In this document: one piece after another, positions 9,270 through 20,875 of the stretch
Layout of the letters: each line of letters opens with the position of its first letter
Position numbering within the stretch: position 1 is the stretch's first letter
Assembly: GCA_903887815.1 (NCBI GenBank)
Contig: CAISRK010000202.1
Coordinates: 1-33,059 of the forward strand
Origin: an uncultured Bacteroidales bacterium
Lineage (GTDB): Bacteria > Bacteroidota > Bacteroidia > Bacteroidales > UBA4417
Direction: 5' to 3'
DNA: 33,059 nt
The notes under the pieces: model-generated
The model's database searches: none
The model's input: the letters and a program-made list of their open reading frames with translations, nothing else
Told to the model about the DNA's origin: nothing
Position numbers and translations under genes: made by a program

Positions 9270-10076
9270 ATGAAAACCTCCGATCAACTCAATTCTGCCT
9301 GGCGCAAAACGGCCTCCGCCATCTACCGAAGGCCAACGGATTCGAAAATTTTTGGTTCGGTCGAAATCGACGTTACAGAACTGGAAACGTGGATTACTGA
9401 AAAACGCAAAAACGGCATCAAAGCCACGCTGACCCATGTTTTTGTGCTTGCCGCAGCCCGGGCTTTACGCGACGAAGTTCCTGAGTTAAATTCATTTATA
9501 CGGCGGGGTAATGTGGTGTTGCACGAAAATATAAATGTAATGGTTAGCGTTTTGTTGCGTGATACGAAAATGGGCTCTGTACTCATTAAAGATGCGGATA
9601 CGCTTACACTCGAAGGGTTGATCGAAGTGATGACCAGCGAAGTTAAAAACTCAAGGCAGGGTTCCGAAAATAAAACCATGCAGATGAAGGACAAACTGGC
9701 CCGGATTCCCTGGCCTTTCAGGGCCTGGGTTTTCCGCCTGATCAAAACCATAACAATGGATTGGGGTCTTTCATTCCCATCCATGGGGCTTTCGGCAAGC
9801 AATTTTGGTTCGTTTATGGTCTCAAATATCGGCAATGTCGGACTCGATATGGGATACCCGGCTTTGTTTCCCTCGTCGAACGTATCATTTGTTCTGATTA
9901 TGGGTGGTGTGAACCGCAAGCCGGCTGTGGTAGGCGATCAGATACTTCCACGCACCATATTATCGCTGGGTGCAGCACTCGATCACCGGGTTGTGGATGC
10001 ATCGCACGGCGGATTATTGTTCCGATATTTGAAACACATAGTTAAAAATCCGCATCTGCTCGATTCCCCTCTCTAG
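9270..10076 (+). CDS. 2-oxo acid dehydrogenase E2-type acyltransferase catalytic domain, stand-alone
   Basis: 268 aa with an E2/CAT-like C-terminus (LSLGAALDHRVVDASHGGLLFRYLKHIV). No lipoyl or E3-binding domain is present. Confidence 0.8.
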   Translation: MKTSDQLNSAWRKTASAIYRRPTDSKIFGSVEIDVTELETWITEKRKNGIKATLTHVFVLAAARALRDEVPELNSFIRRGNVVLHENINVMVSVLLRDTKMGSVLIKDADTLTLEGLIEVMTSEVKNSRQGSENKTMQMKDKLARIPWPFRAWVFRLIKTITMDWGLSFPSMGLSASNFGSFMVSNIGNVGLDMGYPALFPSSNVSFVLIMGGVNRKPAVVGDQILPRTILSLGAALDHRVVDASHGGLLFRYLKHIVKNPHLLDSPL

Positions 10077-13075
10077 TCAACCATCAGTTTGCCGGTTACA
10101 TGCCGGTTCGAGATTCGATCAGTAAAACGAATAATATAGCACCCCGACTGCAATCCGCTCCTGTCGATTTGTATCTGTTTAGAAGTTACGGGCTCAATTT
10201 GCCGCACTTTCTGACCCGTCAGTGTAAAGATTTCGAGAACCCCGTCATTAATTCCCAATGCGGTATGAATAGCTATTACAGCGTTGTTCCTGAACGGATT
10301 TGGCCTAACCGAAACAGAAAGATTTTCATTGTCGACAGGTTTTTCAAGGCTGACATAGAAACTGTTTTCAGCTCCCGGAGTGCCATGTGGAGGAATTGCA
10401 CTTGCAAACCAGTTAATCCCAAGTGCATTATCGAGTGCCGGCGATCTGAGTTGCAGGCTGGCACCCAGCCCGTCAGCTTCCGTAGGCCAGGGCGCAACAT
10501 CATCATAATGAACAGTATCGATAAGGGTACCTGAATTATTATACAACCGCAAAAGTTCGCCACCGCCTGCAAAACCAAATCCCATCGGCCCAACATAATT
10601 GCTTACTGAGGGGAAAAGGGTATGAAATGCCGTCATATCGAAAGCGATTACTATGTAACCCTTTGCCGGCATTATGGTTCCCGGGCTGAATTTATAAATG
10701 TGAAGATCGTCTTCATCTTTGAATTCCCAGTTTGAAATATCCAGAGAGTGATTCTGTGGATTGTAGAGTTCGACCCAGTCGCCCGGATTAAAACTTGCTG
10801 CAGAATTATAATTTATCTCATTTATAACCAGAGAATCGGAGAATACACGCGGTACAAAAATAGCTGTTATTACATCATTTGCAGTAAGCCGTATGGTGAT
10901 GTCATGGGCCCTGTCGTCAGGCAATACTGTACTGCTGTTTACCTGCCAGTGGTCGAACATAAACTGCTGGTTTGTTTCAATAGCCGACAATTTTGTATCC
11001 ATTCCGCCATAATAATTTCCATTCCATGGGAAATCCATCAATGTAAGCGAGTTGACTTTAACCTGCCCGGCCGCCTGGGGATACACGTTTACAAATATTT
11101 CATAGGGCCCTGTAATAGAATAACACTCCTTTAATCCTTCAGTAACCACAGTATAGCGGGTAGTTACAAAATTTCGTATTTTCTGTACGTTCCCGTTCCA
11201 TTCAGCAACACTTCCTCCCCAGCGGGTGCAATGTTTCGGCATCTCGGGAGCAATGAGCCCGACCATACTGTCGAGCAAATGGATCATCGTTGTGGGTTTA
11301 AAGGCCGTGTTGAGTAAATCGGCATACCGGGCAACATAATATTGTTCAAAACCCGGGTTTTGCCGGAGCTTGTTCAATACTTTTACATGACCTTCAGGAT
11401 CGGATGTACCCGTAATATTTTGCTGAAAACAAGGGGAAACATATGGGTTTTGGGCAGGAATGCCGGTATAATTAATGTAATGACCGAAGGTTGCATCTTC
11501 GTCCCAAAGCATATATGCCCAGCGCTTATGGCTCCCGTTCGGATTCAGCCCTTTCCACCAGGCAACATTCCAGTTAAGCCAGTCGGAACATACCGTGTAG
11601 GAATTTATAAGCATATAATCCACAAGACTTGCAGGATCAAACCGTTCCGTTACATACGAATAGTTTGCGGGCACGGTCATGTCATGAGTCATTATATAAG
11701 TGTAAAGGGCATTCCAGTCGTCGAAGGCAGCCTGGCCACCGTATTCAGCCCATGTGTTTCCCCATAGCATCAGGTAGTAAAGGTCATATCTTTCCTGGTC
11801 ATAATAATACTTGGTGAAGTCATGATCGTCGGGCTTTTCACGTACTGAATATACACCCCAGTACTGACCGTTGGCAAACACAATACAGCGGGCCGATTTC
11901 CTCTCGTCGAGGCTCATTCCTGCTTTTACCGAAATGGTTTGTACGAAGTCATCGCGTATAAGCGCACTCGAATCGATGCCGGGATAATTGTCGTCGCCAC
12001 AGGCGCGCAGAATTATTTTCTGGAACTCATCACGATCGGTATCCGAAAATAGATGTTCAAGCAGAGCATAATTATATCCGCATTCGTCACGCATTTTGTA
12101 ATCGAGGCTTCGCTGGGGGTGAACCCACGAATCCTGTCCGTGTTTGTCGAACTCACCATAGCCCTTGGTAGTGCACACCTGACTTGCATTATAATATTCA
12201 ATCGAACCCCAGGGTTTAATATTTCCGTTTCCGTTCAGCAACAGAAGCAGGTCGGTGCCGGCAACCGAAACCACAGGCAAAGTGAACGATTCGTTGATGA
12301 AATAGGTGTTGAAATCAATGAGACCCGGCAAAATAGTAGCATCCTCACTAAAAACCCGGGCTTTAAGCACAGCAGTTAAAGGTACCACAATGGGTTCAGT
12401 GTAAACGGTTGAGGTTGCAACAGGATCGTTTCCGTTAGTTGTGTAACGTATTTTAGAGTTTGGCTCTGTTGTAATAATACTTATCAGAATTCCACCTGAA
12501 TAAAAGCCGCCTTGCATACTCATTTCAGGCTTATCGGCATAACGCAAATAGGCAGTTGAATTATTAGAAGTTCCCGGTGTTGGCAAGCTAAAAACACGCC
12601 AGTCGGAACTGCCATTGGGTTTTCGTCCATTCGAATGTCCTTTTTGGGTGATTGACAGTTGCTGCTGGTCAATAATATTCCCGGCAGCGTTGGCTAAAAC
12701 GACATATTCGGAGTTGGTTTTAGTTTGTGTAAATTTAAAATTTGTATGAAAATTTCCGGGAGTTGCCATATTACGTCCCGAAGCCCACACGCGTATAAAA
12801 CCTGCATAGGGAATTGTTGTTCCCGCCGGAAATTTCCATTTGGCTGGTGCTGCAGGATTATCGCTCAGTGAATACCCACCAATGTTTACAGGGCCGGAAC
12901 CTGCATTGTAGAGTTCAATCCAGTCGCCATACTCCATGTAATTGTCGGCATAACTATCGATATTTGAACAGGAGTATTCGTTAATAACAACCTGGGCACA
13001 GGCTTTCTGATCCAGGAATAAAACTGAGAAAGGAAACAGCAGGCAGATTATAAAAGAGACGTAAGAAGGCTTCAT
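10073..13075 (-). CDS. CotH kinase-like protein with two lamin-tail domains and a type IX secretion C-terminal sorting domain
   Basis: Signal peptide from the ATG at 13075 (MKPSYVSFIICLLFPFSVLFLDQKACAQ). LTD-like VVINEYSCSN... and SLVINEINYNS...; CotH-like WGVYSVREKPDDHDF and RWAYMLWDEDATFG; C-terminal VSVRPNPFRNNAVI...LTGQKV...GCYIIRF. The 13147 start extends upstream of the signal peptide and is less likely. Confidence 0.85.
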   Translation of the reverse strand: MKPSYVSFIICLLFPFSVLFLDQKACAQVVINEYSCSNIDSYADNYMEYGDWIELYNAGSGPVNIGGYSLSDNPAAPAKWKFPAGTTIPYAGFIRVWASGRNMATPGNFHTNFKFTQTKTNSEYVVLANAAGNIIDQQQLSITQKGHSNGRKPNGSSDWRVFSLPTPGTSNNSTAYLRYADKPEMSMQGGFYSGGILISIITTEPNSKIRYTTNGNDPVATSTVYTEPIVVPLTAVLKARVFSEDATILPGLIDFNTYFINESFTLPVVSVAGTDLLLLLNGNGNIKPWGSIEYYNASQVCTTKGYGEFDKHGQDSWVHPQRSLDYKMRDECGYNYALLEHLFSDTDRDEFQKIILRACGDDNYPGIDSSALIRDDFVQTISVKAGMSLDERKSARCIVFANGQYWGVYSVREKPDDHDFTKYYYDQERYDLYYLMLWGNTWAEYGGQAAFDDWNALYTYIMTHDMTVPANYSYVTERFDPASLVDYMLINSYTVCSDWLNWNVAWWKGLNPNGSHKRWAYMLWDEDATFGHYINYTGIPAQNPYVSPCFQQNITGTSDPEGHVKVLNKLRQNPGFEQYYVARYADLLNTAFKPTTMIHLLDSMVGLIAPEMPKHCTRWGGSVAEWNGNVQKIRNFVTTRYTVVTEGLKECYSITGPYEIFVNVYPQAAGQVKVNSLTLMDFPWNGNYYGGMDTKLSAIETNQQFMFDHWQVNSSTVLPDDRAHDITIRLTANDVITAIFVPRVFSDSLVINEINYNSAASFNPGDWVELYNPQNHSLDISNWEFKDEDDLHIYKFSPGTIMPAKGYIVIAFDMTAFHTLFPSVSNYVGPMGFGFAGGGELLRLYNNSGTLIDTVHYDDVAPWPTEADGLGASLQLRSPALDNALGINWFASAIPPHGTPGAENSFYVSLEKPVDNENLSVSVRPNPFRNNAVIAIHTALGINDGVLEIFTLTGQKVRQIEPVTSKQIQIDRSGLQSGCYIIRFTDRISNRHVTGKLMVD

Positions 13076-13243
13076 AAAAGGCAGGCTTTTGGTTATAACT
13101 ATCACAAATTTAGTGATTATTACAGTTGTAATGTCGTTAAGTGGCACAGATTAACTTTTAAAGCAAGGCTCCCGGATTTGCTGAAACCAAAAACCGCAGA
13201 AATTTTTATCGCACTTTTGAGATTGCTGGTTTCTGATTTGATC

Positions 13244-14428
13244 CTAATTTTTCAATTTAAATATGACAGCCATATTATAAAGCACATCAACTGCTTTCCC
13301 GTCCTGTTTGCCGGGCGACCATTTCGGCATCATTTTCACCACGCGCAAAACTTCCTCATCGCATCCGCTGCCTATTCCCTGCAGAACTTTGAAATCAGCA
13401 AGATTGCCGTTTCTCTTTACCACAAAACTCACATAAACTTTACCTTGTATGGCATTTTCAATTGCTTTTTCCGGGTATCTGATATTTCGGGCAAGGAATG
13501 CAATCCTTTTTTCTTCTCCACCCGGGAAGGAAGGCATTTGTTCAACAATTGCAAAAACGGGCCTTGTTTCATCTTCGATTTCTGTTTTTTCAGTTACTGC
13601 AATTGAATATGTTCCCCCCGATGAGGGATGAACTTTATCGGACCCGGATATTTTTGCTTCTCCATTGGCTCCCGCAGCTTCTCTTTCTGGTGGCGTTTCA
13701 GGAAACTCTGATGCTTGTAAGGTGACGCTGCGTTTATCCTGGCTTATCACATCATCAGATATGATAATATCGGCTACAACCAGAGCGGGTCTCTGAGATC
13801 TTTTTTCCACATTATTTGTATGGCCTGGAATACCCTGTTTTTCCATCATTGAAACTGTAAGCGTATCCTGATTTGAAGTTCCTTCGAGCATTAAAATTTG
13901 GTCAGCACGCTCCTTGGCTAACGTCTGGGTATAAAGCTGGTTCTGAAGCCACAAAACATAGCCGATTACTATAAAAAGTAATAGAGTTGCTGCTGCTGAA
14001 AGCCATACAAAAGGCTGGTACGAGATGTGTTTTTTTTCAGCAGCTTCAATCCTTCCATGTGCATAAAGTCGTTTCCTGATGTGTTCGTTAATCACATCGG
14101 TTCTTTTGCGAAACAAGGCAGGAATGGGTTCATTTGTTTCGGTTTTGGCTTGAGATGCAAAAGGCTGATCATCCGAAGCATTAGTTTGCCCGGATTCTGT
14201 AGCATAAACCGATTTTTCAGTGTCCGCAGGCAGGGACTTGTTTTCATTAAGCCACATTTTCAACCCTTCGGCCGCATCGGCACACAATGGACATTCCTCT
14301 ATATGGTTTTGCGCCTGCAAAAGAGTTTTACCCTTCAACAGTCCGCTGACGAGCTGTAAAAGTGCATCGCCTGTGAGGCAACCTGAGGGCGTAAAGATTG
14401 CCGACGACATTTTATTTTTGTCATTCAT
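13244..14428 (-). CDS. Anti-sigma-factor-like (zf-HC2/ZAS motif) protein with TM segment and TonB C-terminal domain
   Basis: 394 aa. N-terminal NHIEECPLC (HX3CX2C); one TM segment (FVWLSAAATLLLFIVIGYVLWLQ); C-terminal FPGGEEKRIAFLARNIRYPEKAIENAIQGKVYVSFVV...GCDEEVLRVVKMMPKWSPGKQDGK. Confidence 0.88.
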   Translation of the reverse strand: MNDKNKMSSAIFTPSGCLTGDALLQLVSGLLKGKTLLQAQNHIEECPLCADAAEGLKMWLNENKSLPADTEKSVYATESGQTNASDDQPFASQAKTETNEPIPALFRKRTDVINEHIRKRLYAHGRIEAAEKKHISYQPFVWLSAAATLLLFIVIGYVLWLQNQLYTQTLAKERADQILMLEGTSNQDTLTVSMMEKQGIPGHTNNVEKRSQRPALVVADIIISDDVISQDKRSVTLQASEFPETPPEREAAGANGEAKISGSDKVHPSSGGTYSIAVTEKTEIEDETRPVFAIVEQMPSFPGGEEKRIAFLARNIRYPEKAIENAIQGKVYVSFVVKRNGNLADFKVLQGIGSGCDEEVLRVVKMMPKWSPGKQDGKAVDVLYNMAVIFKLKN

Positions 14429-15029
14429 AGCGTTCCAGCCTTTCCATCATTAGCTTCAGTTTGCGTTTGCCGTTTTGTATATAGCTTTTCACTTCATTGT
14501 AGGTATATCCTGTTATCTGTTCAACCTCTCGGTAGGATTTTTCATCGAGGTAAAACAACTCGATACATTGCTTTTGCTCAGAATTCAGTTCGCTGATGGC
14601 TGTTTCAAGATAACGTATCCGGTGTTCTCCATTACCGTCTATCAGATGATCGGGCAACAGGGATTCCATAATTTCCACATCCAGTTTCCTGAGATTTTCC
14701 TCTTTCACTTTTTCGCCCGACTTCCAGTGCCTTAGCTGCATAAGGCATTCGTTTTTTGTGATGGTATATATCCAACTCTTAAAATTAGTGATTTCTGATT
14801 TCTTTAGTAGTTCAAAGAGTTTCTCAAAAACCTGCATTACAGTATCTTCCGAATCCGCATCATTTCCAAGGTATTTATAGCAAACTGTAAATAAAAGGTG
14901 GGTATACCGTTCGTATAGTATCCCGATAATTTCCTTGTCGTGTGTAACCGTATAGCGCACTACCAGCTGCTCATCAGGTAATGAGAGCAGTTCCCTTTTA
15001 TCGTCTTTATGGAAAAAGCGTAGCGCCAC
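14421..15029 (-). CDS. RNA polymerase sigma-70 family (ECF-type) sigma factor
   Basis: 202 aa. Region 2-like ILYERYTHLLFTVCYKYLGNDADSEDTVMQVFEKLFE...FKSWIYTITKN; region 4-like LNSEQKQCIELFYLDEKSYREVEQITGYTYNEVKSYIQNGKRKLK. The start reads as GTG. Confidence 0.9.
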   Translation of the reverse strand: MALRFFHKDDKRELLSLPDEQLVVRYTVTHDKEIIGILYERYTHLLFTVCYKYLGNDADSEDTVMQVFEKLFELLKKSEITNFKSWIYTITKNECLMQLRHWKSGEKVKEENLRKLDVEIMESLLPDHLIDGNGEHRIRYLETAISELNSEQKQCIELFYLDEKSYREVEQITGYTYNEVKSYIQNGKRKLKLMMERLERYE

Positions 15030-15188
15030 AGTGGTGATGTTTATACAAAGATACCCTTTTTACAGGATTTTGGGATTGGAATTCTGGGTTAAAATGGGTA
15101 AAAAGCAAAGATCAAAAGTAGAAAGGACAACTCTACGGAATATTTCTCCTGAATAGTTAACATATGACCTTTGACTGCTAACCAAATC

Positions 15189-15276: not shown

Positions 15277-15442
15277 TTTATGACAACCATGATAACTTGT
15301 ATCCCTTACCTTCTTATTACTCCCATTCTTATCCTGTTATTTCTGTGCATTTTATGGAATTTTTAAAACCAGTGCATTAAATGGATGTAAACAGCCTGCT
15401 ATACCAGTTCACATATCAATTAACCGACTACTTAAAAGCAAA

Positions 15443-16231
15443 GTGATGAAAACCCCGGAAAAAATTGTCGCTCAGATGGATGAGATCATCTTCGAGCACC
15501 GCAACAAGATGTATGGTGCATATATTCTTCGCAAAATGTATAGCACTCAGCTTGTACGCGCTTTGATACTGTCGACAGCCATAATGGCAGCCGGCCTTAC
15601 ATACCCGGTTGTATACAGCTATAAAATCGTTACACCAGTCAGAGATATAGGCGATACCACCGGAGTTATATTTCTATCGAACCATCAGCCCGATAAACCT
15701 TTGGACCCTTTACCTGAGCCTCAAAAGGCAACAGAACATGTAAAAACACCAAGGTTTGTTGCTCCAATCCCTGTGGAAGGGGCGGTTGAAGATGAGGTGT
15801 CATTGAATCCGGATGACTATAATACGGAAAATATAAATCCTCCGGTTGATTTGGGCGAAGAACCGGCCATCACAAAGAAAACCGAAGTGATCGAAATTGA
15901 CGAAACCGAAAAACCCATTATCGATTTTGCCCAGGAAACACCTCTTTTCCCGGGCGGAGACAGCGAACGCCTCAAATTTCTTGCCGATAATATTACTTAT
16001 CCTGAAGATGCGGTTCAGAATGGGATTCAGGGGACTGTATATATTCAGTTTGTTGTTGATACGAAGGGTAACATTACTGATGTGAAAATGATGCGGGGCA
16101 TAGGCGGAGGATGCGATGAGGAGGCGATAAGAGTTGTAAAAATGATGCCTCAATGGCACCCGGGCCGTCAAAACGGCATGTATGTCAGAGTAAGGTACAC
16201 AATGTCCATATTATTTAAATTGAATAGCTGA
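15443..16231 (+). CDS. Energy transducer TonB
   Basis: 262 aa. N-terminus MDEIIFEHRNKMYGAYILRKMY typical of Bacteroidetes TonB, a TM segment, a Pro-rich linker, and C-terminal FPGGDSERLKFLADNITYPEDAVQNGIQGTVYIQFVV...GCDEEAIRVVKMMPQWHPGRQNG. Confidence 0.92.
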   Translation: MMKTPEKIVAQMDEIIFEHRNKMYGAYILRKMYSTQLVRALILSTAIMAAGLTYPVVYSYKIVTPVRDIGDTTGVIFLSNHQPDKPLDPLPEPQKATEHVKTPRFVAPIPVEGAVEDEVSLNPDDYNTENINPPVDLGEEPAITKKTEVIEIDETEKPIIDFAQETPLFPGGDSERLKFLADNITYPEDAVQNGIQGTVYIQFVVDTKGNITDVKMMRGIGGGCDEEAIRVVKMMPQWHPGRQNGMYVRVRYTMSILFKLNS

Positions 16232-16298: not shown

Positions 16299-16348
16299 AA
16301 CCCCCAGGGTATCAGACACCCGATTGGCGTGTAGATACGCTGGGGTTT
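16299..16348. repeat. Imperfect inverted repeat overlapping the 3' end of the flavodoxin/ferredoxin gene
   Basis: AACCCCCAGGGTATC (16299-16313) pairs at 13 of 15 positions with GATACGCTGGGGTTT (16334-16348). Confidence 0.7.
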
Positions 16349-17400
16349 GGAATTCTATACCTTCTCCAGAATTTCCAGGTAGTAAGCGAAGCGTAAGTGA
16401 TGATTTTGTTAAGTTTCGGGAACCTCATCAGGTAATGTATAAATTCATAGCCTGAATAGAAGGTAACAATCCATATTCCCCATTGCACAATAAATAGAAG
16501 AACTTTATACGCCATCCACGAATGGCCTAACCATAAAGCCACCAGTTCCGTAACTTTACCCGACAGCCAGGGATTTGCAAATGCAGTTAATAGAAATACA
16601 AGAACAAAAACAAGCGAATGAGCCGTTTCTATTGCTCGCTGGGGACAATAGTTCATGCATTTCATGCAACTTTCGCATGTAAATTTCCAGTAAGGCCGGT
16701 TCCCCGAAAGTATGATGGATTTTGTCGGACACTGTTCAATACAAACCATACAGTTATTGCAGTTGTAATTAGCAACAAAGGTTTTGGCAAGGATGTATCG
16801 CCCAACAAAATAATACCCGAATGCAAATGGGGCAACAAGTATATCGAGAGGAAGCAAAACAAACGATTTCAGAAATACATGTTTGCCCGCCAGGATGTTT
16901 ACAGCAAAGTTTTTGGTCAGTCGTTCGTAATGCTCAACCATCGAATCTATTACTTTTTTTCGTAAGCCGGGGTGGAGCGAAATCCAGTTTGAAGGCAGAT
17001 CGACCGGGTACATGGCCTTCACTTTATAGCCTTTAAAAAACATAATCAATGCAGGAAAATAGAGGGCAATTCCACTAAGCCCCGGTAAAAACAATTTGCC
17101 GAGTTTCATACCTGCACGTGTGTTCCCGATAAATACATCCGATCCCTTTAATAACCTGAACCGGAAAAGAAAACGGAGCATGGAATGAGGCATATTGAAA
17201 CCATGCGTTGCGGAGAAAAACCCGATTAAGGTTTTCCCGGTAAAACCGGCGATATCATTCGGGTTGAACTGGTGAAAGGATGTGATATGTGTTCGGAGGC
17301 CTTGTTCCTTTGCTTTTTCCACTATCCATTCTGAAACCCGTTTTGAATTTCCGGTTCCCGAATAATAGATTATAAGAAGGTTGTCGTAACTTTTTTCCAT
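16312..17400 (-). CDS. EFR1-type flavodoxin + dicluster [4Fe-4S] ferredoxin protein with hydrophobic C-terminal segments
   Basis: 362 aa. Flavodoxin-like LLIIYYSGTGNSKRVSEWIV; two CX2CX2CX3CP motifs (CNNCMVCIEQCP, CESCMKCMNYCP); hydrophobic LVFVLVFLLTAFANP and AYKVLLFIVQWGIWIVTFYSGY. Confidence 0.87.
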   Translation of the reverse strand: MEKSYDNLLIIYYSGTGNSKRVSEWIVEKAKEQGLRTHITSFHQFNPNDIAGFTGKTLIGFFSATHGFNMPHSMLRFLFRFRLLKGSDVFIGNTRAGMKLGKLFLPGLSGIALYFPALIMFFKGYKVKAMYPVDLPSNWISLHPGLRKKVIDSMVEHYERLTKNFAVNILAGKHVFLKSFVLLPLDILVAPFAFGYYFVGRYILAKTFVANYNCNNCMVCIEQCPTKSIILSGNRPYWKFTCESCMKCMNYCPQRAIETAHSLVFVLVFLLTAFANPWLSGKVTELVALWLGHSWMAYKVLLFIVQWGIWIVTFYSGYEFIHYLMRFPKLNKIITYASLTTWKFWRRYRIPNPSVSTRQSGV

Positions 17401-17638
17401 GGGTTTAAGCAGTTAAAATCGACAATTTGACTCAAAATTACTTATAAATGCTCTTGTCATACTAAACAATATTTTGAAATTCTTGTTTTTGCATTCCCCA
17501 ATCCCTAACTCCTAACCCCTGCTAAATATACTCTTTCTAAATTGCCTGTTAACGGAATAACAGGTGAATAAAAAATATAATTTTGCTCCGTGAAACTCTG
17601 AAAGGAGAAATTGAAAAAATATTTTGCATACGGCCATT

Positions 17639-20600
17639 ATGAATAAAATTACTGAACACCCGATTCTGGAAGTACCTGTAGTTGAAAAAGTTGACTTTCG
17701 GTATGAAGGAACCGCCGTTAGCGGGGAGAAAGGCTTTACTATTGCAGCAGCTCTGCACCAGGCCGGGTTTCCGGTCCACAGCCATAGTTTATCGAACCGC
17801 GAACGCAGTCTCGAATGCGGAATAGGCAAATGCGGGGCATGCGAAATGCTTGTCGACGGGCAAATCCGGCGTATCTGTATTACAAAAGTGGATAATGTAA
17901 AAGAGGTTAGCGAAATTCCGCATGATTATTCTCCTGTTGCGCGCGAAGTAAATACCGAAAAGCCGGTAGATGTTTATAAAACCACCGTTGCAATAATCGG
18001 AGCAGGACCTGCCGGTCTGGCCTGCCGCGAAGAGTTACTGAAACAGGGTGTGGATAACATCGTTATTGATAACAACGATAAGATAGGAGGCCAATTCCTG
18101 ATGCAGACTCACCAGTTCTTCTTTTTCGAGAAAGAAAAGAAATTCGGCGGGATGCGCGGTTTTGATATAGCAAAAACACTGGCAGGCGAAAGCCATGAAG
18201 GCATTTTTCTGAACAGTACCGTTTGGGATATACTCGAAGGAAAACGTATTGCCGTTAAGAATGTTGAAACGGAAGAGATCTATTACGTGGATGCCGAATA
18301 TATGGTAGTAGCCACAGGTGCAGTTCCGTTTATGCCCACTTTCGAAAATGATGATCTTCCAGGTGTTTACACTGCTGCGGTTGTTCAGAAAATGATGAAC
18401 AACGAACTCACCCTCCTGGGGAAAAGAGTGCTCACCGTGGGTGCCGGGAACATAGGCTACCTGACTTCATACCAGCTTATGCAGGCAGGTGCCGAAGTTA
18501 AAGCTATTATTGAAGCCCAGCCATTCGAAGGCGGTTTCCCTGTGCAGGCAAACCGGGTGCGCCGCCTGGGAATCCCGGTCATGACCTCGCATATCCTTTT
18601 AAAGGCTTTACCTAATGAAGATAACACAGGGATCATTGGAGCAGTGGTTGCCGAGTGCAAAAATTTCGAAGCTGTTCCCGGAACCGAGAAAATTATCGGC
18701 GATATTGATGTAATTAATATCTGTACAGGGCTGGTTGCCGACGACCAGCTGATTATTAAAGGGAATGAGATTTTTGGCCGGAATTGTTACGGTGCCGGCG
18801 ATGCTATTCGAATTGGTGAAGGTACCAGTGCTGTTTTGCGTGGTAACCAGGTTGCCTATGAAATTCTTCAGGATATGGGCGAAAATATCGATTACGATGC
18901 TTACCTGAATGTTTCGAAGGAATACATAGATTCGCAGCAGCATCCGCATCTGGTAATACCGGAACCTTATAAGCCAAGCGGGGAGCGCATGAACACGAAA
19001 CCCTTTGTGCAGATCGATTGCCTGTATGGTTTTGCCTGTAACCCCTGTGAGTTTGCCTGCCCGCATGGTGCAATTACCAAAACTTCTACAAGTACGGTCC
19101 CGCAGCTCGATTTCGAAAAATGCATCGGATGTATGGATTGCGTTTATCAATGCCCCGGGCTTGCTATTTTTGGTTATGCACCTAAAAAAGACTGGATTTT
19201 CCTGCCTATCGAGTATTTTGCTGAGGAAAAGAAGGAAGTTTATCTTGTTGATAACCAAGGGAAAAAACTTGGCAATGGCATTATCGAAAAAATCCTGAAC
19301 AAACCAAACAAAACAAATATTGCACGCGTTAAAGCCCTTGATATCCAGGGCGAAGCGCTGCTCGAGGTACGCGGTTTCATTTTAAAGGACAAATATCCTG
19401 AACCCATTATAATGAAGCCCACTGAATATAAAGGGGTTCACGAAATGTATGTTTGCCATTGCGATGATGTTACCCTGGGTGAAATTGTCAAAACCATAGG
19501 TGAACGGAAATTTATTTCGGTCGACGAAATCAAGCATACTACACGTCTTGGTATGGGGGCTTGCCGGGGTAAAAGGTGCATCCGCAGGGTTAAGCAGGTT
19601 TTACGCAGCAAAGGAATCAGCGTTGTTGGCGACGCTACGCCCCGTGGCCCGTTAAGCAACCAATTGGCAATGGGGGAATTGTTTCCAAAAAATGTCCGCG
19701 AAAATATTATTATCAACAACAGCAAAAACGCAGCCCGCATTGTTAAAGTTCCTGCTCTGATAGCCGGAGGAGGTATAGGGGGAAGTGCGTTATTCCGTTA
19801 TATGGCCGAAGCCGGGCTGAAACCGGCACTTCTTAATTACGGCCGCGGGGCTTCATGGCGTAATATTGCAGGCGGACGACCAGCTTTCAGTTTGCCCGAA
19901 ATCGCTGATATTGCCCGCCATAACCTTGAAATATTCAAAGAATTACAGAAAATAAGGGATATCAATTTCCTTTCAACGCGGTATATCAACTTTGCCCACG
20001 ACGATGCCACTTTCAAGGCTCTGGAAGATTCACGTTCCTGGTCGGATGCCTACATGGTTGATCCCAGGGATTACAAAAAGGAAATCTCTCCTAACATTAA
20101 TCCCGATCTCGGAAAAAATTACCAGGCAGCGCTTATCACCCGCGATTGCTGGCAGGCAACACCGGGTCGGGTTATTGATCTGATCAGGCGAATTGGGGTT
20201 GAAAAGGGAGGTAAGATATATGAGGACTGCCAGCTGCTGGATGTAAGAAAGGAAAACGGGAATTATATTGTTTTGGCAAGGGATCATGACAAGAAATATG
20301 TTGAATTCCATACACCGCATTTTGTTAATTCCCTGGGACCGGAAGCGGATAAATTTTCGAAACAGTTAGGAATCGAAACAGGTCTTTACCCGGTTAAACA
20401 CCAGGCATTTATTACTCGCAGACTACCGAATATGGGAATAAACGGACAGCCGCTTGATATGCTTATCGACCGTCGTAAATACAAAGGGTTTACCGCTGTA
20501 TATGGCCAGCAGTTAGGCGAAACCGGGCAGATTATCGGATGTGCTTCACCACAGGTTGAACCAATGGAAACGGATAAGAACCTGAAAATAAACTCAAAGG

Positions 20601-20875
20601 AATTCCTCGAAATTGTTTCCGAAGTTTTTGTCAGCTGGCTTCCTCAACTGTCTTCAGTTGGTTTCCAGGCAGTATGGGCAGGTTATTATGTCGAACCGCG
20701 TATGATTCTTGATCCCGACCTGGGCTTGTTTGTCGGTTTTCGTGGACAAGGTTTTATGCTTGGTCAGTACCTGGCGAAAATTTATGTCGACAAACTGATG
20801 GACAAAGGTGTTCCCTCTTATTTCGACCGGTTGAAACTGAGTGGTGACGGGCTACTGGAAAAAGCATTCAAATAA
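17639..20875 (+). CDS. Multidomain FAD-dependent oxidoreductase: [2Fe-2S] (Fer2_4-like) + pyridine nucleotide-disulfide oxidoreductase + 2x[4Fe-4S] + BFD-like [2Fe-2S] + DAO-like domain
   Basis: About 1078 aa from the ATG at 17639; the listed 17624 start is a TTG. Motifs in order: CGIGKCGACEMLVDGQIRRIC; VAIIGAGPAGLACREELLKQG; CLYGFACNPCEFACP and CIGCMDCVYQCP; CHCDDVTLGEIV...GACRGKRC; VPALIAGGGIGGSALFRYMAEAG and VYGQQLGETGQIIGCASPQVEP. Confidence 0.9.
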   Translation: MNKITEHPILEVPVVEKVDFRYEGTAVSGEKGFTIAAALHQAGFPVHSHSLSNRERSLECGIGKCGACEMLVDGQIRRICITKVDNVKEVSEIPHDYSPVAREVNTEKPVDVYKTTVAIIGAGPAGLACREELLKQGVDNIVIDNNDKIGGQFLMQTHQFFFFEKEKKFGGMRGFDIAKTLAGESHEGIFLNSTVWDILEGKRIAVKNVETEEIYYVDAEYMVVATGAVPFMPTFENDDLPGVYTAAVVQKMMNNELTLLGKRVLTVGAGNIGYLTSYQLMQAGAEVKAIIEAQPFEGGFPVQANRVRRLGIPVMTSHILLKALPNEDNTGIIGAVVAECKNFEAVPGTEKIIGDIDVINICTGLVADDQLIIKGNEIFGRNCYGAGDAIRIGEGTSAVLRGNQVAYEILQDMGENIDYDAYLNVSKEYIDSQQHPHLVIPEPYKPSGERMNTKPFVQIDCLYGFACNPCEFACPHGAITKTSTSTVPQLDFEKCIGCMDCVYQCPGLAIFGYAPKKDWIFLPIEYFAEEKKEVYLVDNQGKKLGNGIIEKILNKPNKTNIARVKALDIQGEALLEVRGFILKDKYPEPIIMKPTEYKGVHEMYVCHCDDVTLGEIVKTIGERKFISVDEIKHTTRLGMGACRGKRCIRRVKQVLRSKGISVVGDATPRGPLSNQLAMGELFPKNVRENIIINNSKNAARIVKVPALIAGGGIGGSALFRYMAEAGLKPALLNYGRGASWRNIAGGRPAFSLPEIADIARHNLEIFKELQKIRDINFLSTRYINFAHDDATFKALEDSRSWSDAYMVDPRDYKKEISPNINPDLGKNYQAALITRDCWQATPGRVIDLIRRIGVEKGGKIYEDCQLLDVRKENGNYIVLARDHDKKYVEFHTPHFVNSLGPEADKFSKQLGIETGLYPVKHQAFITRRLPNMGINGQPLDMLIDRRKYKGFTAVYGQQLGETGQIIGCASPQVEPMETDKNLKINSKEFLEIVSEVFVSWLPQLSSVGFQAVWAGYYVEPRMILDPDLGLFVGFRGQGFMLGQYLAKIYVDKLMDKGVPSYFDRLKLSGDGLLEKAFK

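Follow-up and report, generated by a model that had tools for sequence, protein, structure and literature searches.

The stretch of DNA analysed here (33,059 nucleotides; hereafter, the window) is part of contig C202 in a 4.26-Mb, 92%-complete assembly of an uncultured Bacteroidales bacterium, and the same-genus relatives with which it was compared are Bacteroidales MAGs. Two overlapping genes on the minus strand code for an ECF sigma factor and for a protein in which a putative zinc anti-sigma (ZAS) domain and a TonB C-terminal domain (CTD) are joined; a canonical TonB gene is transcribed divergently from them. The features of the locus are the following:

13244..14428, minus strand: anti-sigma/TonB hybrid, 394 aa, with a predicted ZAS domain, a TM helix, a disordered linker and TonB_C
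13253..13486, minus strand: TonB CTD, residues 315-392 (PF03544, E=1e-17; PDB fold match)
13487..13945, minus strand: periplasmic linker, largely disordered (pLDDT <50 at residues 180-291)
13946..14014, minus strand: TM helix, about residues 139-161 (hydropathy, basic flank; AF2 helix 139-183)
14243..14428, minus strand: predicted zinc anti-sigma domain, residues 1-62, cytoplasmic, helices 20-27, 33-45 and 47-64 (AF2, Foldseek and PDB profile search)
14282..14305, minus strand: putative zinc ligands H42-x3-C46-x2-C49, with C17 at 14378-14380 (invariant in 13 homologues)
14421..15029, minus strand: ECF sigma factor, 202 aa, regions 2 and 4 (Sigma70_r2, E=2e-12; Sigma70_r4_2, E=3e-11)
15044..15053, minus strand: housekeeping-type Bacteroidota promoter element TATCTTTGTA, immediately 5' of the sigma start codon
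15351..15378, plus strand: candidate sigma target promoter TTTATGGAA-N14-GCATT, 67 nt 5' of the TonB ATG
15443..16231, plus strand: canonical TonB gene, divergent from sigma (ATG at 15446; YGAYILR juxtamembrane signature; TonB_C, E=7e-19)

On one side of this cluster, at 10073-13147 on the minus strand, lies a gene for a protein with CotH kinase and lamin-tail domains and a type IX secretion tail (Por_Secre_tail). On the other side are genes for a flavodoxin/4Fe-4S protein (16312-17400) and for a 1083-aa fused 2Fe-2S/Pyr_redox/Fer2_BFD/DAO oxidoreductase (17624-20875), both of which are syntenic beside the TonB-sigma cluster in most genus relatives.

A preliminary description of this locus had reported a 394-aa product with an HX3CX2C motif, one TM segment, a linker and a C-terminal TonB domain, and every one of these sequence claims holds, as judged from the open reading frames, PF03544, an alignment of 13 homologues and an AF2 model. 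The motif, NHIEECPLC, corresponds to H42-x3-C46-x2-C49; H42, C46 and C49, as well as C17, D51 and G55, are invariant across the 13 full-length hybrid homologues, and the linker is variable. The match to PF03544 covers all 79 profile positions, and the single TM helix has its basic flank on the cytoplasmic side. Structure prediction of the protein alone, which had been proposed as a check, gave an anti-sigma-like N-terminal fold, the TM helix, the disordered linker and the TonB CTD. Ten other genomes of the genus have a full-length homologue, as do two MAGs from further afield that bear the labels Chitinophaga pinensis and Bacteroidetes; since every one of these homologues immediately follows the sigma gene, a chance or mis-assembled fusion was rejected.

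The same description had assigned the N-terminus to the zf-HC2 type of anti-sigma factor. The zf-HC2 model of Pfam did not match the window protein at E<=1, but it matched 4 of the 13 close homologues (best 2e-4) and 29/61 order-level relatives (best 1e-7); an NCBIfam anti-sigma model matched six relatives (best 2e-9). When a profile of the 62-residue domain was compared with all PDB sequences, the ZAS anti-sigma factors DdvA (E=0.028) and RslA (0.07) ranked first. Residues 1-62 were modelled by AF2 with a pLDDT of 83, and 16 of the 17 PDB matches returned by Foldseek for this model were anti-sigma factors (ChrR, RslA, RsiW, RskA); ChrR superimposes on it with an rmsd of 1.1 A over 48 columns. 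The Foldseek E-values are weak (0.7-10) because the domain is tiny, and it is the unanimity of the matches that we count as telling. The view that the hybrid is a single-pass inner-membrane anti-sigma factor of the ZAS type is well supported by the sequence and model comparisons.

For the other end of the protein, the best PDB fold match is 6i97_D, a TonB CTD in complex with FoxA. The TonB_C domains of the genus hybrids share up to 66-68% identity with canonical TonB CTDs and lie nearest to them in a domain tree, in which 13 Fitch changes were counted between hybrid and TonB; as this tree is built from a single domain of 104 columns without support analysis, it only suggests that TonB_C was recruited repeatedly into hybrids.

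The sigma and hybrid genes overlap by 8 nt (ATGAATGA, at 14428-14421), confirming the earlier reading that the hybrid ATG overlaps the stop codon of the upstream sigma gene at 14421-14428; an overlap of the sigma stop with the next gene recurs in 48/66 Bacteroidales and 30/49 other Bacteroidota neighbourhoods. The TATCTTTGTA element is kept in 10/11 genus loci, and its copy 5' of sigma is the sole one in the window, against 0.10 expected. We assign the sigma-operon element TATCTTTG to the TAnnTTTG type, the Bacteroidota housekeeping promoter consensus, and the sigma operon is predicted to be transcribed from this element rather than from the sigma factor's own motif (see below). Autoregulation of sigma was considered and rejected, the conserved element 5' of the gene being of the housekeeping TATCTTTG type and not the sigma motif; the latter was found upstream of sigma, in the same direction, at one locus only (G645).

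The sigma subfamily is sharply bounded: a profile search of 396 Bacteroidota genomes found 50 members besides the query at E<=1e-44, with the next match at 1e-24, and there are profile matches in 104/295 Bacteroidales. The gene after sigma codes for an N-terminal ASD-like domain and one TM segment in 66/66 neighbourhoods of the order and 47/49 of the phylum, and all the full-length hybrid homologues found sit downstream of this sigma. The architecture first described, with a periplasmic TonB domain on a membrane anti-sigma factor whose gene accompanies that of its sigma, is thus supported by sequence, fold and conserved pairing. The zinc ligands (HxxxCxxC) are kept in 53/66 of the paired N-termini in the order, where shuffling gives an expectation of about 0.1%, but in 7/49 of the phylum cases, in which 'DPFLADALEG' stands in their place. 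The periplasmic part is TonB_C in 28/66 order and 23/49 phylum cases by a model built from hybrids (by Pfam instead, in 24/61, or in 24/37 of the longer proteins including the window protein), TPR repeats in about one third of the order members and CarboxypepD_reg with TonB_C in many others; it is absent in 13 phylum cases. This fits a sensor/anti-sigma design in which a putatively constant cytoplasmic module is combined with exchangeable periplasmic modules. The hybrid is not an isolated invention: these comparisons place it in a sigma/anti-sigma family, widespread in Bacteroidota, whose periplasmic domains are exchangeable. In other Bacteroidota families (L148-L197), the paired anti-sigma domain is mostly without zinc ligands and CarboxypepD_reg often stands beside TonB_C; a group of paired proteins of about 118 aa, also in L148-L197, is without any periplasmic domain.

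The gene divergent from sigma belongs to a TonB or TonB-VIT operon in 9/11 genus loci, and TTTATGGAA-N14-GCATC is found upstream of the divergent TonB in 9/9 linked genus loci, with a spacing of exactly 14 and small single-position deviations. The copy at 15351-15378 has an expectation of 0.00 in the window, by shuffling. In two genomes (G009 and G001), the TonB operon lies about 27-30 kb from sigma on the same contig and the motif is 5' of the operon there too. The regulon was scanned for by pattern search, with the reversed motif as a control. The 16 genus genomes gave 33 matches vs 9 for the control, and 40 sigma-bearing genomes of other families gave 88 vs 30; about a dozen of these lie within sigma genes, where they code for the conserved residues MES...HL, and were discounted as a coincidence of coding sequence. 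A set of 40 genomes that lack the sigma gave 28 matches vs 20 for the control, and promoter-like placement of the motif was seen in 15/30 and 11/32 cases with sigma vs 0/28 without; the motif is background in sigma-less genomes. Its conservation and placement strongly indicate that TTTATGGAA-N14-GCATC is the recognition sequence of the sigma factor, through which it would drive a regulon that is small and conserved.

It had been noted earlier that no TonB-dependent receptor lies in the window, so that any partner would be unlinked. No TonB-dependent receptor was found among the window ORFs scanned, the larger unscanned ORFs reading as housekeeping genes, and that part of the claim stands for the surroundings of the pair; what had been missed is that a TonB gene is linked, divergently, and has a conserved candidate sigma promoter. 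With this gene and promoter in place, the output would probably be TonB supply and not a single receptor.

The recurrent targets of the motif, found independently in many Bacteroidales families, are canonical TonB, VIT-vWA-TonB_C and MG2/alpha-2-macroglobulin-like (A2M) genes. A VIT-vWA-TonB_C protein of 801 aa matches VIT at 9e-37 and TonB_C at 6e-19, and the MG2/alpha-2-macroglobulin-like gene of the window genome, on contig C339, matches MG2 at 2e-15. Motif targets seen once or twice are SusC/CarboxypepD genes and a gene whose PBP1C-like label comes from its sequence alone. In the genome G001 the motif lies 377 nt upstream of exbB, which we note without relying on it as a target. The conclusion that the sigma factor controls a TonB/envelope regulon is, on this comparative evidence, the most likely one. 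The idea that only TonB_C-type anti-sigma factors control TonB genes was rejected, as genomes with the TPR type (G536, G598, G632) have matches at TonB, VIT-TonB or A2M; because these genomes share the targets, the regulon goes with the sigma factor and not with the TonB_C form.

Several individual loci were also recorded. Proteins of about 800 aa with VIT and vWA domains and ending in TonB_C are encoded at L198:5871-8276, L323:3196-5586, L324:3991-6417 and L325:2144-4549, with the motif 5' or at the head of the operon, and such proteins may resemble the vWA force transducers that have been proposed elsewhere (PMC12204202). MG2/alpha-2-macroglobulin-like genes lie about 40-135 nt 3' of the motif in different families (L328:2-3232, on C339; L326, L394, L402, L416 and L423). 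A secreted protein of 126 aa with repeats of the 'VDYDYQADIK' type is motif-headed (L347:1081-1461), and in two genomes of the genus a motif copy is followed, after about 430 nt, by a gene for a 71-aa membrane protein (L306 and L317, 1934-2149).

The hybrid shares with the ZAS (zf-HC2) anti-sigma factors RslA, ChrR, RsiW and DdvA a helical zinc domain (C...Hx3Cx2C) and a gene adjoining that of an ECF sigma, as well as the fold and profile matches; it differs from them by its added periplasmic TonB domain and in that the window protein falls below the Pfam zf-HC2 threshold. To our knowledge, none of these four proteins has a periplasmic TonB domain. With the TonB energy transducers the hybrid has in common a complete TonB_C, a single TM segment and a linker, but it has in addition the predicted cytoplasmic anti-sigma domain and a sigma-coupled operon. 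It is also without a motor-binding TM signature: hybrids carry neither SHLS, the proteobacterial form, nor YGAYxxR, which is juxtamembrane in the Bacteroidota TonB proteins studied here and of which the YGAY part was found in 0/13 hybrids vs 9/12 TonB proteins checked, being absent in the other 3/12. In the FecIRA and FoxIRA systems (PMC9249621, PMC11637429), an inner-membrane anti-sigma factor likewise extends a C-terminal domain into the periplasm, presumably to contact a TonB-dependent transporter; in the hybrid, however, the contact would be made by a TonB domain, no transporter is linked and the candidate target is TonB. A FecR domain did not match the hybrid at E<=1, and no linked TonB-dependent transducer with a signalling domain was found near the pair, which has the divergent TonB gene instead. 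Dma, also from Bacteroidota, has a similar arrangement of an N-terminal anti-sigma domain, a TM helix, a long disordered tether and a C-terminal domain toward the outer membrane, with an adjacent ECF sigma (PMC13088901). The C-terminal part of Dma is an outer-membrane beta-barrel and its sigma partner is ECF21 (PMC13088901), whereas the hybrid pairs with the well-bounded subfamily described above (within or outside ECF21), and its C-terminus shows no beta-barrel of the Dma kind but a TonB CTD, by PF03544, AF2 and PDB fold match. By its defining features, the hybrid is a putative ZAS-type anti-sigma factor, with predicted sigma binding, that ends in a TonB CTD, and not Dma, an anti-sigma factor of the FecR type or a conventional TonB. 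It is parallel to, and distinct from, Dma and FecR, and is a variant among ZAS anti-sigma factors; no description of a zf-HC2/anti-sigma and TonB fusion was found among the open-licence papers searched, a set without key ECF classification papers.

The best explanation of these observations, in which our confidence is evenly balanced, is that the sigma/anti-sigma pair couples transcription to the condition of the TonB system via the periplasmic TonB domain, through a docking step that we infer. The domain, itself unpowered, would probe TonB-dependent transporters by docking on their TonB boxes or N-terminal domains; the window genome has 27 Plug domains, and hence many possible unlinked partners. 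The docked fraction would reflect the number of receptor sites that genuine TonB leaves unserved; a shift in it would affect the stability or conformation of the anti-sigma factor and free sigma, which would then raise TonB and envelope functions. The direction could be either way: docking might release sigma, or it might protect the anti-sigma factor, just as contact with FoxA in the absence of signal shields FoxR from proteolysis in Pseudomonas (PMC11637429). The hybrid is probably not an energised TonB, because it is without the YGAY signature of most canonical TonB proteins at these loci and of exbBD-linked TonB, YGAY being a sequence correlate and not a proven motor contact. Against the explanation we count that the TonB_C form is unnecessary for the regulon, as some members of the sigma subfamily are paired with TPR repeats or with no periplasmic domain and genomes of the TPR type share the motif at TonB, VIT and A2M genes. 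Tentatively, and as something short of probable, we also propose a TonB-sufficiency circuit, in which the TonB docking domain of the anti-sigma factor would compete with TonB for the TonB boxes of transporters, and unserved transporters would directly release sigma for the production of more TonB and related envelope proteins.

Other readings of the locus start from the same proteins. Redox-responsive ZAS proteins exist, such as RsrA, and the zinc ligands are intact in the window protein; the signal might then be cytoplasmic, a thiol or zinc redox change at the ZAS site, with the TonB domain as a passive anchor. We think this improbable: outside the order, most of the related pairs are without zinc ligands and yet keep the TM segment and often TonB_C, so that zinc is not the conserved part. 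It is unlikely, though much less so, that the anti-sigma factor and regulon are as described but that TonB_C senses another ligand (peptidoglycan, a periplasmic partner such as the co-controlled VIT-vWA or A2M proteins, or its own dimerisation), as one of several interchangeable envelope-state sensors. The exchange of the periplasmic part among TonB_C, TPR repeats, CarboxypepD_reg with TonB_C, or nothing at all would be expected of such sensors, and the A2M, VIT-vWA and PBP1C-like genes give the regulon a flavour of envelope maintenance. However, the genus TonB_C domains are close to canonical TonB CTDs and that of the window protein has a receptor-bound form as its best structural match, and for these reasons a ligand shared with TonB is more likely; moreover, CarboxypepD_reg, frequent in such proteins elsewhere, has been implicated in the TBDT-TonB interaction in Bacteroides (PMC12204202).

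Very improbable, in our view, is that the hybrid works as a motor-driven TonB whose anti-sigma domain merely autoregulates the operon. The complete TonB_C and the single TM helix would suit such a protein, but not one of the 13 hybrids or of the 116 family members read has YGAY, which is present in the TonB proteins of the same loci and in the TonB of an exbB-exbD-exbD-tonB operon. The TM segment is without His, unlike the SHLS motor motif (PMC12204202), and the promoter of the sigma operon is of the housekeeping type and not the sigma motif, which speaks against autoregulation.

TonB supply has to be matched to many competing transporters, especially in Bacteroidota with their large sets of TonB-dependent transporters. 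The family described here makes it possible to test for a direct connection between periplasmic TonB-type contact and transcription, as it comes with a candidate sigma factor, anti-sigma factor, promoter motif and regulon. In it, one cytoplasmic anti-sigma module appears combined with different periplasmic sensor modules, and beside Dma it would be a second Bacteroidota solution for an anti-sigma factor reaching toward the outer membrane. With TonB itself apparently activated by the partner sigma, a TonB-like probe may serve the cell to tune its own supply of TonB; the TonB-sufficiency circuit, if true, would regulate envelope energy coupling by homeostatic feedback and would not be a substrate-specific uptake response.
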